Of a DNA stretch of 64,000 nt, positions 22,191 to 31,832 are shown piece after piece. The position numbers were made by a program, and so were the translations under genes. Every line of letters begins with the position of its first letter. The stretch's first letter is position 1. Where the stretch lies: contig NZ_CP012369.1 of the NCBI RefSeq assembly GCF_001267405.1, positions 398,001 through 462,000 on the forward strand, read 5' to 3'. This DNA comes from Moorella thermoacetica (lineage in GTDB: Bacteria; Bacillota; DSM-521; Neomoorellales; Neomoorellaceae). The notes below the pieces were generated by a model. It had not been told where the DNA came from. It searched no databases and saw only the letters and a list, made by a program, of their open reading frames with translations.

Positions 22191-23882
22191 GTTTCAACCC
22201 TCGCCCGGCATGGAAGCCGGGCGCGACGCTATGGATTTTGAGTCTGCCATGGCTGATGTTAGGTTTCAACCCTCGCCCGGCATGGAAGCCGGGCGCGACG
22301 GCTGGTCAAAGTAAACCCCTCCGGCACTTCGCAGGTTTCAACCCTCGCCCGGCATGGAAGCCGGGCGCGACGTGCACAACAAAGCGGCAGAGATGGGGCT
22401 TAAACGGTTTCAACCCTCGCCCGGCATGGAAGCCGGGCGCGACTGATTTATCCTGTGCCCTTGGAAGAGACACAAAAGGTTTCAACCCTCGCCCGGCATG
22501 GAAGCCGGGCGCGACGTATTAGCGCTGATGTCGCTATCAAGGCCCTTGTGGTTTCAACCCTCGCCCGGCATGGAAGCCGGGCGCGACATGAGATTTTTGT
22601 TTTGCGTTTCCTGCGCGACCAGGGTTTCAACCCTCGCCCGGCATGGAAGCCGGGCGCGACGATTCTGTTGGATGGCAAAGCTTACTTAGTGGTTGTTTCA
22701 ACCCTCGCCCGGCATGGAAGCCGGGCGCGACTAGGCCCTCCAGGTAGCCGTTAATGGCAGCGCAGAGTTTCAACCCTCGCCCGGCATGGAAGCCGGGCGC
22801 GACGCCCACGAGGTTTATGAAAATGATTATTTTGTGCTGTTTCAACCCTCGCCCGGCATGGAAGCCGGGCGCGACTTGACGGCCTGAACCCCCATATGGC
22901 CGTGATCGATGTTTCAACCCTCGCCCGGCATGGAAGCCGGGCGCGACGTCATTGGCGAGTCAGGACAGGTATATGTAGACATTGTTTCAACCCTCGCCCG
23001 GCATGGAAGCCGGGCGCGACGACCGAATTTCGGCTCCGCTGCGGACTATAGAAAGTTTCAACCCTCGCCCGGCATGGAAGCCGGGCGCGACGACAATAGG
23101 CAGCATATGCCCCCGTATTCGGATTCGGTTTCAACCCTCGCCCGGCATGGAAGCCGGGCGCGACGGCTATTTGGCAAAACGATTGAGATGATACAAGATG
23201 TTTCAACCCTCGCCCGGCATGGAAGCCGGGCGCGACGACCTTCCGGTGGTCCTCTAGCTTCCGGCCCTGCAGTTTCAACCCTCGCCCGGCATGGAAGCCG
23301 GGCGCGACTTGCGTATCAGACGAAGGGTTAAAAGCACCGTCAGTTTCAACCCTCGCCCGGCATGGAAGCCGGGCGCGACTTTCGGCTTCGGGGCCTTATA
23401 TTCCTTGCCATCCAGTTTCAACCCTCGCCCGGCATGGAAGCCGGGCGCGACGTAGATCCATATCCGATCAAGTCCAAGAATATGTTGTTTCAACCCTCGC
23501 CCGGCATGGAAGCCGGGCGCGACGCACCTTCACCTGCTTAAATTATACCACATTTCCAGTTTCAACCCTCGCCCGGCATGGAAGCCGGGCGCGACATTTG
23601 TTCGCCATTTGAAAGAGTGGCGAACGAGTGTTTCAACCCTCGCCCGGCATGGAAGCCGGGCGCGACCTCTCGCCCGAAAAAAATCCTCAAAAAATTTTTC
23701 GGTTTCAACCCTCGCCCGGCATGGAAGCCGGGCGCGACATTAGACGGTCTTACCAAAGGTCTAATCAGGACAGGTTTCAACCCTCGCCCGGCATGGAAGC
23801 CGGGCGCGACGATACGCCAGGCTGTGCAAGCCTTTCGGCTATACGGTTTCAACCCTCGCCCGGCATGGAAGCCGGGCGCGAC
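22191..23882 (-). CRISPR. Type I-C CRISPR array, 24 repeats and 23 spacers
   Basis: Twenty-four copies of a 37-bp repeat begin at 22191, 22263, 22335, 22407, 22479, 22551, 22624, 22695, 22767, 22839, 22911, 22984, 23055, 23128, 23200, 23272, 23343, 23415, 23487, 23559, 23630, 23702, 23774 and 23846. All copies are identical by eye. Spacers are 34-36 nt and all differ. On the minus strand the repeat starts GTCGCGCCCGGC and ends GGGTTGAAAC, the usual form for type I-C, with an 8-bp palindrome CGCCCGGC/GCCGGGCG around a 6-nt loop. The array is therefore read from the cas2 side toward jetD. The newest spacers should lie near 23.8 kb and the oldest near 22.2 kb. Open frames through it are artefacts of the repeat. 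Confidence 0.98.
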
Positions 23883-24053: not shown

Positions 24054-24344
24054 TTACAAAACCAGGGGGGCGTCAAAATCAATCGTAAGGTTGACGCCAT
24101 ACTCCTGGATGTATTTTTTCGCGGGTTCGCGCAGTCGATAAATCCGCAGGCTATCGCTTTTTTCATCGATACACTGCAAGAGCCGGTGCTTTAACTGTTC
24201 AAACTGGGCTTCGTTGACCGAACACTCAAAGACGGACTTTTGCACCCTCTGACCAAAATCTTTACATACCTGGGCAACTTTACGCAGGCGTTTTTTACCT
24301 GCCTCTGTTTCTGTAGAAACATCATAAGTAATTAAAATATACAT
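24054..24344 (-). CDS. cas2: CRISPR-associated endonuclease Cas2
   Basis: Cas2 (96 aa), ferredoxin-fold dimer that joins two Cas1 dimers in the spacer-integration complex. The N-terminus MYILITYDVST carries the conserved first-strand Asp, and the rest (KRLRKVAQVCKDFGQRVQKSV) is typical of the subtype I-C protein. It is the last gene of the cas operon, 32 bp after cas1, and its stop abuts the leader. Length is normal. Confidence 0.97.
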   Translation of the reverse strand: MYILITYDVSTETEAGKKRLRKVAQVCKDFGQRVQKSVFECSVNEAQFEQLKHRLLQCIDEKSDSLRIYRLREPAKKYIQEYGVNLTIDFDAPLVL

Positions 24345-24376: not shown

Positions 24377-25408
24377 TTACCGGTACATAAAGGGCAAATA
24401 TTCCTCAGCATCTCCCCTCAGGACACGGGCGAGTAAACGGGCCTGGATATGGGGAACCAGCCCTAGGGGCACCTTTCTATTCAGGACGGGATGAAGTACT
24501 TCTTCCTGCTTGCGCTTCTGGTAAGCAATGGCAATCTCTTTCCTGGCGTTGTCATTAATATGCACGGCGCCACCAGGGCGTTCGACAAAATCCCTTTCAT
24601 CGATCTGACGACGGTTTACTAAAGTCAGGGCCAAACGGTCAGCCAGGATTGCACGAAACTCCTCCATCAAATCTAAAGCCAGAGCTGGTCGCCCCGAACG
24701 GAGGACGTGGAGATATCCAATCTGGGGATCAAGCCCTACACCTTCGGCAGCGCTAAGACAATCGTTCAGCAAGAGAGCATATATATAGGATAATAAAGCG
24801 TTCATCCTGTCCAGGGGCGGCCGCCGGTTTCGGTGGGTGATTTTAAAGGCTTCTCGGTTAACTCTGACCATGCGATCAAGAGTTGCGAAGTAATGCCGGG
24901 CGGCGTTACCTTCGATACCACGAATTTGCTCTAGATCGGGGGAACGTGACAGGGCATCCAGTCCGTGAGCCAGTTCCCTGGCTGTTTCCTGGAGGGCTTT
25001 CCTATCGTCTTCGTTATCGGCTTCCCGGGCACCGCGTAGCACAACTTGCCGGGTATTGCGGATTTTTCCGGCGACTATATTTCTGGCGATAGCGGTTGTT
25101 TTTTTACTATCAGATAGGGCTTCATGCTGGGCGTGGCGAAGAAAAACGTTTCCTGATACCGGGCCTTCCACGCGGGCTTTAAAACGGCCATGCTGGTCGT
25201 GAAAGACAATCAAGCGTTTGTCCTCGGCACAGCGCATTATTAAGGGCGTGGTAAGTGTAACATCACCAAAACAGACGATGCTGCCCAGGTGGTGCAGGGG
25301 AATCTGCATTTTTAATTCCCCTTCCACCTCGATTTTTACCGTCTCGTGATCTAAGCGCACCAGGGTGCGCGGTGTCATAAGGTACAGGGTGTTTAACAGG
25401 ATATGCAT
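24377..25408 (-). CDS. cas1: Type I-C CRISPR integrase Cas1
   Basis: Cas1 (343 aa), the integrase that inserts new spacers at the leader end. The start MHILLNTLYLMTPRT is characteristic of the I-C form. Conserved features include IEGNAARHYF in the helical domain, with the catalytic Glu, GYLHVLRSGRPALALDLMEEFR with the His and second acidic patch, and the C-terminal basic helix. The ATG is preceded by AAGGA about 13 nt upstream, inside a CRISPR-repeat-like sequence (25416-25452) described separately. It lies 71 bp after cas4 in a single minus-strand operon. Confidence 0.97.
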   Translation of the reverse strand: MHILLNTLYLMTPRTLVRLDHETVKIEVEGELKMQIPLHHLGSIVCFGDVTLTTPLIMRCAEDKRLIVFHDQHGRFKARVEGPVSGNVFLRHAQHEALSDSKKTTAIARNIVAGKIRNTRQVVLRGAREADNEDDRKALQETARELAHGLDALSRSPDLEQIRGIEGNAARHYFATLDRMVRVNREAFKITHRNRRPPLDRMNALLSYIYALLLNDCLSAAEGVGLDPQIGYLHVLRSGRPALALDLMEEFRAILADRLALTLVNRRQIDERDFVERPGGAVHINDNARKEIAIAYQKRKQEEVLHPVLNRKVPLGLVPHIQARLLARVLRGDAEEYLPFMYR

Positions 25409-25415
25409 CGTTTGT

Positions 25416-25452
25416 CTTCAATCCTTGTACGGTATTTGGGTTCGGGTGTAAC
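25416..25452 (-). repeat. Diverged CRISPR-repeat-like sequence before cas1
   Basis: A stretch the same length as the array repeat (37 nt). On the minus strand it begins GTTACACCCG and ends AAGGATTGAAG, against GTCGCGCCCG and AGGGTTGAAAC in the array. Roughly 60 percent of positions agree by hand alignment with one small shift. The central palindrome is not preserved. It also shares TTCAATCC and GTAAC blocks (plus strand) with the element before cas4. It may be a decayed repeat or a chance match. Confidence 0.45.
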
Positions 25453-25479: not shown

Positions 25480-26124
25480 TCAAGTATCACCTTCAGGTTT
25501 AAACAATTCACATAGGAGCATGCGCAGCCGACCTTTCTCCTTTATTTGCGGCAGGCAGGAGTCCTGTAAAGAACATTCCCGGCAACGCTCATCGGCGGCA
25601 GGTGGGGGGAGGATGTTACTACGCTGCATCATGCGGATCCGGATAATTGCCGCTTCTACCTGTTCCCTTAAATAGCTGTCAAAAGTAACCTCCCTTCGCC
25701 GGTGGGATGAATGATGGTAAATAGCTCCCCTGGGAACCTGCTTGCCGGTCATTTCTTCCAGGCACATAGCCTGGGCACAGACCTGCAAATCGTCATGCTG
25801 GTGTTTGCGCTTGGGGCCATGTTTATATTCAACGGGATAGGGGATATTGCCGTGAAATTCGACTACATCGGCCTTGCCGATGAGGCCTAAGCGCAGGGAC
25901 CAGATGGGCAGGGCGCGTTCAATATGCACCCCGCCCTCCATCTCCCCACATTCAACATCTACTAGATTATGAACGAATCGTCCTTTCAGGGTATACATAT
26001 TTTCCGTAAAAGTTTGTTCTACATGGATGAGGGCACACTGGCGGGGGCAGTATGCATAGTGTTCCAGGGCCGATACCATGACGATATCCCTGTCGTCCCA
26101 ACCGGGAAGTATGGTGCTTTCCAT
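25480..26124 (-). CDS. cas4: CRISPR-associated exonuclease Cas4
   Basis: RecB-like nuclease with a 4Fe-4S cluster (214 aa from the chosen start) that trims prespacers and enforces PAM selection with Cas1-Cas2. The four cluster cysteines are visible: one in YCPRQC near the N-terminus and three in CRECSLQDSC near the C-terminus. Nuclease motifs include GKADVVEF and PVEYKHG. A longer frame opens with GTG at 26160, but the ATG at 26124 has AGGTGG 6 nt upstream while the GTG has no ribosome site and lies inside the repeat-like element at 26147-26190. Confidence 0.95.
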   Translation of the reverse strand: MESTILPGWDDRDIVMVSALEHYAYCPRQCALIHVEQTFTENMYTLKGRFVHNLVDVECGEMEGGVHIERALPIWSLRLGLIGKADVVEFHGNIPYPVEYKHGPKRKHQHDDLQVCAQAMCLEEMTGKQVPRGAIYHHSSHRRREVTFDSYLREQVEAAIIRIRMMQRSNILPPPAADERCRECSLQDSCLPQIKEKGRLRMLLCELFKPEGDT

Positions 26125-26146: not shown

Positions 26147-26190
26147 ATTTCAATCCACACCGGTATGGAGATATTGGAACCGGGCGTAAC
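26147..26190 (-). repeat. Diverged CRISPR-repeat-like sequence before cas4
   Basis: On the plus strand the element reads TTTCAATCC, then CACCGGTATGGA, then GGAACCGGGCGTAAC. The array repeat reads TTTCAACCC, CGCCCGGCATGGA and AGCCGGGCGCGAC in the same order. The main difference is about 8 extra nt in the hairpin loop. A stem CCGGT/ACCGG is retained. It lies between the cas7 stop (26208) and the cas4 start (26124), in the same orientation as the array. Confidence 0.65.
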
Positions 26191-26207: not shown

Positions 26208-27101
<894 letters not shown>

Positions 27102-28885: not shown

Positions 28886-29587
28886 TCACCTCCCGATTTC
28901 TTTATAAAGGTCTTGCGGCACCCGGAGGATGCCGTTTTCCAGGCGAGCGTTAAAGAATACGGGCCTGCCTTCGCCGCTGCCATCAGAATTGTATTTGAGG
29001 TCCAGAAGCATCTGGCCGAGATACTCACTATGCTTAATAGGTTGATCGGCAGGGCTAGACGGTCCGAAAAAGGCGCAGAACTCCCGGCAGCCCAGGTAAG
29101 GCCGGTGGTAGCACTGGCCGCGTTCCACCCGCCGCCGGAATTGGTCCCGGTATTTTGCCGGGTGGATATCCCGGGCGTGGGCGGCCATGACCTGTTCGGC
29201 ACGGATTATGTAGGCTACTTCCCGCAGGGCCAGGGTATGGCGCTGGGCACGGTGCTGGGGTTGGTCAGCATAATAACCGCCGCCGTTCCTGGCCCAGCCG
29301 CGGGCGGTGGAAACGACCATTTTATCGTTTACTTCATTACGTAAGATGGAGAAATACCGGATGGGCTTCAATACTTCAATCTGCCGCACTCGCCAGCGAA
29401 ACTCCGGCTTCCAGAAGATGGCCTCTAGTATTCCCCGGGCTGCCGATGGCGTCATAACGGGATAAGAAACCCGTTCCACCTTCATTTCCGGCCTGGTAAA
29501 ACAGGCCAGATCACCCCACACTTTAACTGCCAGCCATCCTTCGACCCCCGCCTGATCTGACGATCCGGCGCCAGCTAAAGACTTCAT
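28886..29587 (-). CDS. cas5c: Type I-C Cas5c/Cas5d crRNA-processing endonuclease
   Basis: Cas5 of subtype I-C (233 aa). Type I-C lacks Cas6, so this subunit cleaves the pre-crRNA at each repeat hairpin and then caps the 5' handle. The N-terminal RRM (VKVWGDLACFTRPEMKVERVSYPVMTPSAARGI, quoted in parts: VKVWGDLACF, SYPVMTPSAARGI) is well conserved, and GCREFCAFF is the typical later block. The preceding gene is cas3, 61 bp upstream. If the repeat-like sequences in the cas4-cas1 region fold appropriately, this enzyme would be the one to cut them. Confidence 0.95.
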   Translation of the reverse strand: MKSLAGAGSSDQAGVEGWLAVKVWGDLACFTRPEMKVERVSYPVMTPSAARGILEAIFWKPEFRWRVRQIEVLKPIRYFSILRNEVNDKMVVSTARGWARNGGGYYADQPQHRAQRHTLALREVAYIIRAEQVMAAHARDIHPAKYRDQFRRRVERGQCYHRPYLGCREFCAFFGPSSPADQPIKHSEYLGQMLLDLKYNSDGSGEGRPVFFNARLENGILRVPQDLYKEIGR

Positions 29588-29648: not shown

Positions 29649-31832
29649 CTAAAATACCAGCTCCTCCGGGTCGCGGGCCGTCGTCACCAGGCCACGAATT
29701 TCGTCGTAACCCCCCAGCCATTCATACAGGCCGGGAAATATTTCCTGGACCACGCCTTCCCTTTGGAGAGAATTAACAGTGTAAGCGTTGATATTTACCA
29801 GGTAGGGCTGCAACTGCCGCATGATTAGACGACTTACACCCCGGTGGCGGAGGGCGCTGATTAGTTCATCCACCCTCCGGTCATCGGGGCCTTCATGGTA
29901 GTTGACAATTACCGGAACCACCCTTTGCTCGATCATCTGGAATTTTTGCGCCACTTCGGGATAATTCAAGCTGCGGCGGCTGGCCTGAATTCCTTTGGCA
30001 TCCAGGGTGCAGGACTGGTAGAGGCGCTGAAAATAGATCCGGTACAGGCCGGGGTCATGCAGGTCAACCCCTGTCACACTAGCGAGCAGCGTGGCGGCAA
30101 TTTCGGTCCCGGTCTTATAGCTGCCAGGAGGAAGGCAGCCTTCTTCCGGATTGAAAATTATCACCCGGCCTTCTTGCAGCTTCCCTTCCCGGTTGCACCG
30201 CCCGGCGGCCTGGACAATCCTGTCCAGGGGACCCACAGCCCGCAGGACGAGGGGGAAATCCAGATCAACCCCCGCCTCGACTACCTGGGTGGCGACCAGG
30301 CGGCAGGGCCGGCCGTTTCCCAGGCGCCGGCGTACCTCCTGCAGGACCTTACGCCGGTGAGCCCCGCAAAGGAGCGTGGAGAGATGTAAAGCTTCAGGGT
30401 CATCCAGAGCCTCCAGGAGGGCCAGGGCATCCTGTTTGGTGTTAACAACAGCCATGGCCTGGCGGGATTGGCGTATTACTCCGGCTACCTGTTCCCAGCT
30501 CCATTTTTCGTTGCCGGCGGGTACCTGGTAACCCACCCTTTTGAGCAGGGCAAAGTATTTTTGCGGATCAGGAATTATTTCCCTTACGCCCTGCAGTCCC
30601 CGGAAAAAGGGGCTGGTCTCCAGGGCCGGCTGGGTGGCCGAGCACAGGATGACCGTTACTCCATAAAAGTGGACCAGCTGCTGCAGGACATCAAGGATGG
30701 GTTCTAAAAGATGTACCGGCAGGGTCTGGACCTCATCCAGGATGATGACGCTGTTGGCGATGTTGTGGAGTTTGCGGCAACTGCTGCTGCGGTCGGAGAA
30801 TAAACTCTCAAATAGCTGTACCGTGGTTGTAACGATGAGGGTGGCATCCCAGTTCTCGCTGGCCAGGCGGGCCCACAGTTCCTCAGGGGTAGGGTTTTCG
30901 GGATCTAGCGGCGGGGCAACGGCGCTGTGATGCTCAAGGACATTGGCGTTACCAAAGATATCGCGGTAAACGTCGGCCGTCTGCTCGATAATGCTTGTGT
31001 AGGGTATGGCGACAATGATTCTCTCCTTCTGATAACGCAGGGCGTGGAGCAGGGCGAAGGCCATCCCGGAACGGGTCTTGCCGCCACCGGTGGGTACGGT
31101 CAAAGAAAAGAAACCTGGCGTTAGTTCGGCCGCCCGGCAACAGTGCTCGTAGATTTCCCGGCGGATCTGGTTGACATGGCCGCCGCTTTTATCCATTAGC
31201 CTTTGCTGGTTCGCTGCTAATAAAGACCATAAATTAGCAATGGAGGCTTCCTTTTGTCGCAATTTTGTCAGGGAAGGATCAAAATGCCTTTCCGTGTCAA
31301 GGAAATCGGCATCAACCAGGGAACTGAATAGAAGGCGCAGGAATAATTCAACCCTGCTAGCTACATCTACACCTGCTCCTTCCTGCAAAAAGGGCGGCAA
31401 TTCCATATCCAGGGGTTGCTTCGGTTCTAAAGAGGGGATAACCCGGCGGGCGTTTTGCAGGGCGGTGTTATAACGTTTCAGCTGTACCTTATCTTTTAAG
31501 CGAGTCTTTAATTCTGCCCGGGCGGGCAGGCCGCCGTGATGGCCGGCGATAACGAAGGCCAGGGGTTCAAAATATTTTGAGGCCAACATGGCACCGGCGC
31601 TGGAATGGTTGGGGCCGCGGCGGCCGCCTTCGCCTTGCAGGTAAGCCTGGAACTCCGGATGGAATTTCCCCAGGTCATGCCACAGGCCGGTACGGTAACC
31701 AATATGTGGTACTCCCAGTGGTTCGTTAAATTTTTGGGTTAGGTTAGCAACCGCCTCAAGATGATCTAATAGTGATTGTTCTTTACCCTGGGAATTTGCA
31801 GTGTGGGCCAGGAATTGTTCCATGAATATCAC
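29649..31832 (-). CDS. cas3: CRISPR helicase-nuclease Cas3
   Basis: Cas3 (727 aa), recruited by Cascade to unwind and degrade the invader. The N-terminal HD nuclease has LWHDLGKFHPEF near residue 50 and AGHHGG near 97. The superfamily 2 helicase has Walker A PTGGGKTRSG near 250, DEVQTLP near 370 and the C-terminal motif VAGRCNREG-like QAAGRCNREGK. Both activities therefore look intact in one polypeptide. It is the first gene of the cas operon; the 196-bp gap to the divergent WYL gene holds a TTGACA-like -35 overlapped by a GACA/TGTC palindrome. Confidence 0.96.
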   Translation of the reverse strand: MIFMEQFLAHTANSQGKEQSLLDHLEAVANLTQKFNEPLGVPHIGYRTGLWHDLGKFHPEFQAYLQGEGGRRGPNHSSAGAMLASKYFEPLAFVIAGHHGGLPARAELKTRLKDKVQLKRYNTALQNARRVIPSLEPKQPLDMELPPFLQEGAGVDVASRVELFLRLLFSSLVDADFLDTERHFDPSLTKLRQKEASIANLWSLLAANQQRLMDKSGGHVNQIRREIYEHCCRAAELTPGFFSLTVPTGGGKTRSGMAFALLHALRYQKERIIVAIPYTSIIEQTADVYRDIFGNANVLEHHSAVAPPLDPENPTPEELWARLASENWDATLIVTTTVQLFESLFSDRSSSCRKLHNIANSVIILDEVQTLPVHLLEPILDVLQQLVHFYGVTVILCSATQPALETSPFFRGLQGVREIIPDPQKYFALLKRVGYQVPAGNEKWSWEQVAGVIRQSRQAMAVVNTKQDALALLEALDDPEALHLSTLLCGAHRRKVLQEVRRRLGNGRPCRLVATQVVEAGVDLDFPLVLRAVGPLDRIVQAAGRCNREGKLQEGRVIIFNPEEGCLPPGSYKTGTEIAATLLASVTGVDLHDPGLYRIYFQRLYQSCTLDAKGIQASRRSLNYPEVAQKFQMIEQRVVPVIVNYHEGPDDRRVDELISALRHRGVSRLIMRQLQPYLVNINAYTVNSLQREGVVQEIFPGLYEWLGGYDEIRGLVTTARDPEELVF

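Follow-up and report, generated by a model that had tools for sequence, protein, structure and literature searches.

A decayed solo CRISPR repeat in the type I-C cas operon of Moorella thermoacetica and a dispersed family of solo repeats in Moorella

The junction between cas7 and cas4 in the type I-C CRISPR locus studied here holds a repeat-derived element (26,147–26,190, minus strand), whose origin and identity are well supported by its sequence, a covariance-model match, a junction shuffle test and homologs in two relatives. Sequence comparison establishes the identity, homology, orientation and dispersal of the element as well as its lack of a promoter target. It is probably a decaying ectopic solo repeat with little or no present effect, one of a small family dispersed in Moorella, and a functional Cas5c site is less likely than a relic. 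The family itself, with its sense-oriented copies, is a more interesting result than the element.

The element between cas7 and cas4

The host genome is a single contig of 2.53 Mb, and the window (the whole 64-kb stretch of DNA that was analysed) contains a complete type I-C system on its minus strand. Its closest relatives among the genomes searched, with Cas7 identities of 97–98%, are Moorella strains. The gene order is cas3-cas5c-cas8c-cas7-element-cas4-cas1-cas2-array, with the cas genes and the array all read in the same direction. The genes are cas3 (29,649–31,832), cas5c (28,886–29,587; TIGR01876), which encodes the presumed repeat endoribonuclease of the locus, cas7c/csd2 (26,208–27,101; TIGR02589), cas4 (25,480–26,124; TIGR00372), cas1 (24,377–25,408; TIGR03640) and cas2 (24,054–24,344; TIGR01573). 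The array (22,191–23,882) has 24 repeats of GTCGCGCCCGGCTTCCATGCCGGGCGAGGGTTGAAAC.

The cas7–cas4 gap has the mRNA-strand sequence ...GTTACGCCCGGTTCCAATATCTCCATACCGGTGTGGATTGAAAT AAACAAACAAAAGGTGGCATATATG, of which the first 44 nt correspond to window positions 26,147–26,190. Three blocks of the array repeat, in the order and orientation of the array, had been reported for this site in the initial annotation and are present exactly there. The annotation had also described ≈8 extra nt in the loop, which is correct, and a shortened stem, which agrees with the folding: the arms (26,179–26,186 and 26,156–26,164) form a hairpin (26,156–26,186) of eight pairs with one bulge, a 14-nt loop and a predicted energy of −10.2 kcal/mol, half as stable as the array repeat (−20.1 kcal/mol). 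The 3′ handle of the element, GTGGATTGAAAT (26,147–26,158), would be the 5′ handle of a crRNA. Many canonical I-C repeats have exactly this handle, and its only exact copy in the 2.5-Mb genome is the one in the element. Between the handle and the coding sequence of cas4 lie an unstructured AAACAAACAAAA segment and an AGGTGG Shine-Dalgarno, followed by the ATG (26,122–26,124; whole segment 26,122–26,146). An open reading frame for cas4 starts at a GTG inside the element (26,160). As the conserved start is the ATG at 26,124, automatic annotation may begin cas4 too early.

A scan of the 64 kb with the strain's own repeat gave the element a score of 29.1, with several other sites scoring equally or higher (up to 35.3), and against shuffled repeats the match was no better than chance (z 0.9). 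The genus repeat GTTGCGCCCGGCTCCCATGCCGGGCGAGGATTGAAAC scored 42.0 in the cas7–cas4 junction, a value reached by none of 2000 dinucleotide shuffles (p ≈ 0.0005) and in the sense orientation only; the same test was not significant for the cas3–cas5, cas8–cas7 and cas1–cas2 junctions of the window. A comparison with shuffled sequences, proposed earlier as a way to refute the element, has gone against it for the own repeat and in its favour for the genus repeat within the junction. The covariance search that had been suggested was done with a model built from I-C array repeats alone, opposite-strand matches inside the array being set aside. It recovered the element at full length and exactly at 26,147–26,190 (12.5 bits), as the best non-array match in the 64 kb, tied with one 14-nt site, but with an E-value of 0.29 for this length. 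A search against Rfam returned for the element a single sub-threshold match, to CRISPR-DR15 on the plus strand (17.7 bits, E 3), and the copies of M. stamsii matched CRISPR-DR9, with the solo ones under the curated cut-off.

Repeats in the cas operons of Moorella and of other I-C loci

The same junction carries a homolog in M. stamsii (locus L009; GTTACGCCCGGCTCCAATGCCGGTGAGGATTGGAAC, score 52, z 10.2) and in strain DSM 21394 (L010; GTTACGCCCGGCTCCAATACGGGTGAGGTTTGAAAA, score 46, z 7.9), whereas the top-scoring unrelated site of these two loci reached ≈27. The M. stamsii homolog can be aligned to the array repeat of its own genome over the whole length, with about four mismatches and a one-base gap. 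All three copies have the derived changes GTTA, TCCAA, a 1-nt deletion and GTG for GCG in common, which points to descent from one insertion. The conserved handle (GG)ATTGAAA(C/T) is present in the window element and degraded in DSM 21394 (GTTTGAAAA). Two other Moorella I-C loci, L011 and that of M. sulfitireducens (L012), have short cas7–cas4 junctions that lack the element. M. stamsii and this strain are ≈91% identical across the cas5–cas2 stretch, whereas two housekeeping regions are 77–82% identical. Judged by these identities, the cas operon has been transferred horizontally between Moorella lineages, and the shared element would reflect this transfer rather than conservation through the history of the species.

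A second and more decayed repeat, GTTACACCCGAACCCAAATACCGTACAAGGATTGAAGAC, was found at the cas4–cas1 junction of the window (25,414–25,452, minus strand), where the junction shuffle gave p ≈ 0.0005 in sense and p 0.37 in antisense. Only the handle AAGGATTGAAGA remains at this junction in M. sulfitireducens, the stem being gone, and this handle may have been co-opted as the Shine-Dalgarno of cas1. The cas1–cas2 junction contains a solo repeat with TTAAGTGTGG on either side in both M. stamsii (L009, 5,290–5,355) and M. sulfitireducens (L012, 9,668–9,730), and a single TTAAGTGG-like stretch in the window. The TTAAGTGTGG direct repeats (≈10–12 nt) are a possible target-site duplication. Three adaptation-gene junctions thus carry, or once carried, a repeat in some Moorella.

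Approximately 120 I-C loci were gathered, and 82 of these were scanned with their own array repeat. Locus L013 has two ectopic repeats ≈62 nt apart at cas7–cas4, with intact stems and paired changes on both sides. Clear ectopic repeats were also identified at cas4–cas1 in L015, at cas3–cas5 in L109, L122 and L137, and upstream of cas3 in L110 and L137, as well as in L117 and L119 when generic repeats were used. Others lie within the reading frame of cas3 (L134, L137 and L119/L136); in L137, L119 and L136 the in-frame repeat replaces ≈18 nt of the relative L109, and a target-site duplication is not evident in these cas3 copies. With each clear site counted once, about 15 of the 16 ectopic copies are in the sense orientation (p 0.0005; our own count), L027 being the clear antisense exception. 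A short-motif scan picked up weaker antisense look-alikes at cas3–cas5 in canonical I-C loci.

Solo repeats at genes outside the CRISPR locus

A search of the whole genome of M. stamsii (G012; 150 candidates scored per genome) revealed four further solo repeats, all in gene sense. One is in frame close to the priA start (L181) and identical to the array repeat at 35 of 37 positions, with no target-site duplication evident. The other three are found between fliP and fliQ (L182), before dsrA (L183) and before purA (L184). The 718 kb searched in this genome held no solo repeats beyond these four. The fliQ and purA sites are filled in M. stamsii, G007, G010 and G005, with a degenerate purA copy in G013, and the priA site is filled in M. 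stamsii, G007 and G010 and decayed in G005. All three sites are empty in the genome of the window (G000), where a GGATTGAAACAAAC pattern search allowing one mismatch gave one match, namely the cas7–cas4 element. None of G005, G007 and G010 has an I-C Cas7 match above the family cut-off. Several of the solo copies (fliQ, purA and dsrA, with a similar arrangement in the window) are followed by an A-rich AAACAAAC-like tail and then a Shine-Dalgarno. With several copies at unrelated sites that are filled or empty among relatives, the repeats form a dispersed family. An origin from phages was rejected, as the repeat had no match in phages and viral contigs.

Dispersed solo CRISPR repeats were not described in any paper returned by a literature search; a study by Shmakov and co-workers from 2023, which reportedly deals with standalone repeats, lay outside the comparison. 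Several known systems share features with the Moorella repeats. CreA of CreTA and CreR are likewise single degenerate repeats in a cas locus, of the subtype of the array, but they differ in that the element has no toxin gene and no promoter-matching guide, and in that copies of it also occur at non-CRISPR genes. The hairpin with handle of a cognate repeat in a transcript is shared with the sites at which Cas5c or Cas6 process pre-crRNA, although in Moorella it lies in an mRNA, has a weakened stem and is a putative site only. Rickettsia palindromic elements and REP/BIME are short hairpins inserted between and within genes, also in frame in proteins. The Moorella copies differ from these in consisting of CRISPR repeat sequence and in being all in gene sense, and no transposase was identified. 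Lone repeats without an array are also known as solitary repeat units, or Racr RNA anti-CRISPRs, which are viral and among which a type I-C case is carried on a bicistronic mRNA (PMC10651486). The Moorella copies, by contrast, are chromosomal and lie inside the cas operon or close to housekeeping genes.

Lone repeats of cas loci have thus been known as guides or viral decoys, while here they also stand beside or within unrelated host genes, oriented in gene sense and with clean filled and empty sites among relatives. It is conceivable, though we consider it improbable, that I-C repeats are seeded in sense into host mRNAs (cas genes, fliQ, purA, dsrA and priA) and that they are cleaved or bound by the Cas5c of the host, acting by itself or together with Cas7. 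If so, a CRISPR processing enzyme would act as a general mRNA regulator, and the window element would be a worn member of its target set. The dispersed family makes both the copying of repeats outside an array and the cutting or binding of ordinary mRNAs by Cas5c testable in cultured bacteria. M. stamsii combines intact copies with a type I-C system and lends itself to such tests far better than the worn element of the window.

Origin and possible role of the element

The reading as a decayed solo repeat, one of those offered in the initial annotation, is supported by the sister loci and by the wider solo-repeat family. A solo copy of the I-C repeat would have entered the cas7–cas4 junction, in the sense of the mRNA, in an ancestor of the present cas locus, and would since have decayed at about the neutral rate while moving along with the cas operon between Moorella lineages. 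Its family, uniformly in gene sense, would comprise at most two more members in the cas operon, the copies upstream of fliQ, purA and dsrA, and the one inside priA. The newly inserted element would have been a good Cas5c substrate. Today it would present a weakened hairpin and a handle in the cas mRNA, just 5′ of the ribosome-binding site of cas4, and is predicted to be at most a poor substrate with little or no effect. The sense bias of the ectopic copies counts against the relic reading, as passive decay alone is insufficient to explain it.

In pairwise comparison the three junction copies differ at ≈5 of 36 sites (identity ≈0.86; our own count), and identity at fourfold sites of the cas genes is ≈0.73–0.91. 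Purifying selection on the element was not detected in this comparison, which has low power, as its divergence is close to the fourfold-degenerate (neutral) rate. All three copies fold to ≈−10 kcal/mol, with the position of the hairpin kept and a Shine-Dalgarno just downstream, and in this strain the closing pair has changed on both sides, from C-G to U-A. The shared folding energy and this paired change could be due to weak selection. The stem energies were no better than those of a neutral simulation (P 0.17 and 0.38), and a pooled stem test of 26 copies was not significant (p ≈ 0.26–0.28), both tests being of low power; covariation was therefore rejected as proof of function. Nor does the element follow changes in the array repeat: the array repeat of the strain has changed to GGGTTGAAAC (GTC.., GGGTTG), and the solo repeat has retained the ancestral GGATTGAAAT (GTT.., GGATTG).

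The same observations bear on the proposal that the element is a working processing site, with Cas5c cleaving the polycistronic cas mRNA at the hairpin's 3′ base so as to split cas3-5-8-7 from cas4-1-2. In an extended form of this proposal, Cas5c may remain bound to the handle and the next 20–35 nt downstream, including the ribosome-binding site of cas4, may become covered by Cas7, so that spare Cascade may lower the translation of the adaptation genes. The nearly uniform sense orientation of the ectopic copies agrees with such a site, as do the kept hairpin position, the short distance from solo repeats to a downstream Shine-Dalgarno at several junctions, and the sense repeats at the cas junctions of L013 (cas7–cas4), L015 (cas4–cas1), and L109 and L137 (cas3–cas5). 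We nevertheless regard it as rather unlikely, given the lack of detectable constraint, the absence of the element in L011 and M. sulfitireducens, the ancestral handle bases and the halved stem stability. Near-intact repeats are tolerated in priA of M. stamsii, which has a I-C system, and in cas3 of L137, where the open reading frame would be severed by cleavage; this argues against efficient cutting of translated mRNA. Copies also persist in species without a I-C Cas7 match. No paper on Cas5c cutting cas mRNA was found in a literature search.

A different origin, as the remnant of a mini-array or through shuffling of the operon at repeats instead of insertion of a single repeat, has precedents in the survey. 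L137 and L119 have a repeat-spacer-repeat unit with a 34-nt spacer at cas3–cas5, L109 retains one repeat and part of the spacer, and from these sequences a mini-array remnant would explain the cas3–cas5 cases; the two repeats of L013 can be read similarly. For the window element we find such an origin quite improbable, as only ≈20 nt separate it from the cas7 stop, with no second repeat nearby, and as the cas1–cas2 copy of M. stamsii is single and placed between short direct repeats.

The location of an ectopic repeat within a cas locus also recalls CreR or CreA, where the repeat and its downstream sequence would form a crRNA-like RNA by which Cascade is guided to the promoter of a cas gene, and CreR RNAs are reported to be widespread among type I systems (PMC12737573). 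In a guide scan of the junction repeats of this strain, M. stamsii (without the stretch upstream of cas3) and DSM 21394, neither the region upstream of cas3 nor other promoters held a seed match flanked by a TTC-type PAM, and no match of another kind was clearly above chance, although the same scan recovered a plausible CreR in L117 as a positive control. The sequence from handle to ATG moreover differs in phase among the species (22, 18 and ≈17 nt), so no guide is conserved. The CreR-type guide suggested in the initial annotation thus lacks a TTC-flanked promoter match and is very unlikely. A CreTA module was rejected as well, the ≈20 nt between cas7 stop and element leaving no room for a toxin RNA gene, and no promoter match being present. 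Chance resemblance, with which the ordinary score of the own repeat would be compatible, is hardly credible in view of the junction shuffle and is ruled out by the M. stamsii homolog, near-complete in its alignment, and that of DSM 21394.

Some other I-C loci have CreR-like features of their own. The likely CreR upstream of cas3 in L117 (511–680) consists of a repeat followed by ATGATTGGTATATTAAC, which partially matches ATGATaGGTgTcTTAAC in the promoter region of cas3. L114 and L126 both have canonical I-C ectopic repeats upstream of cas3, followed by similar ATGTTTTTTGTGTA-like sequence, and these are possibly a conserved CreR.
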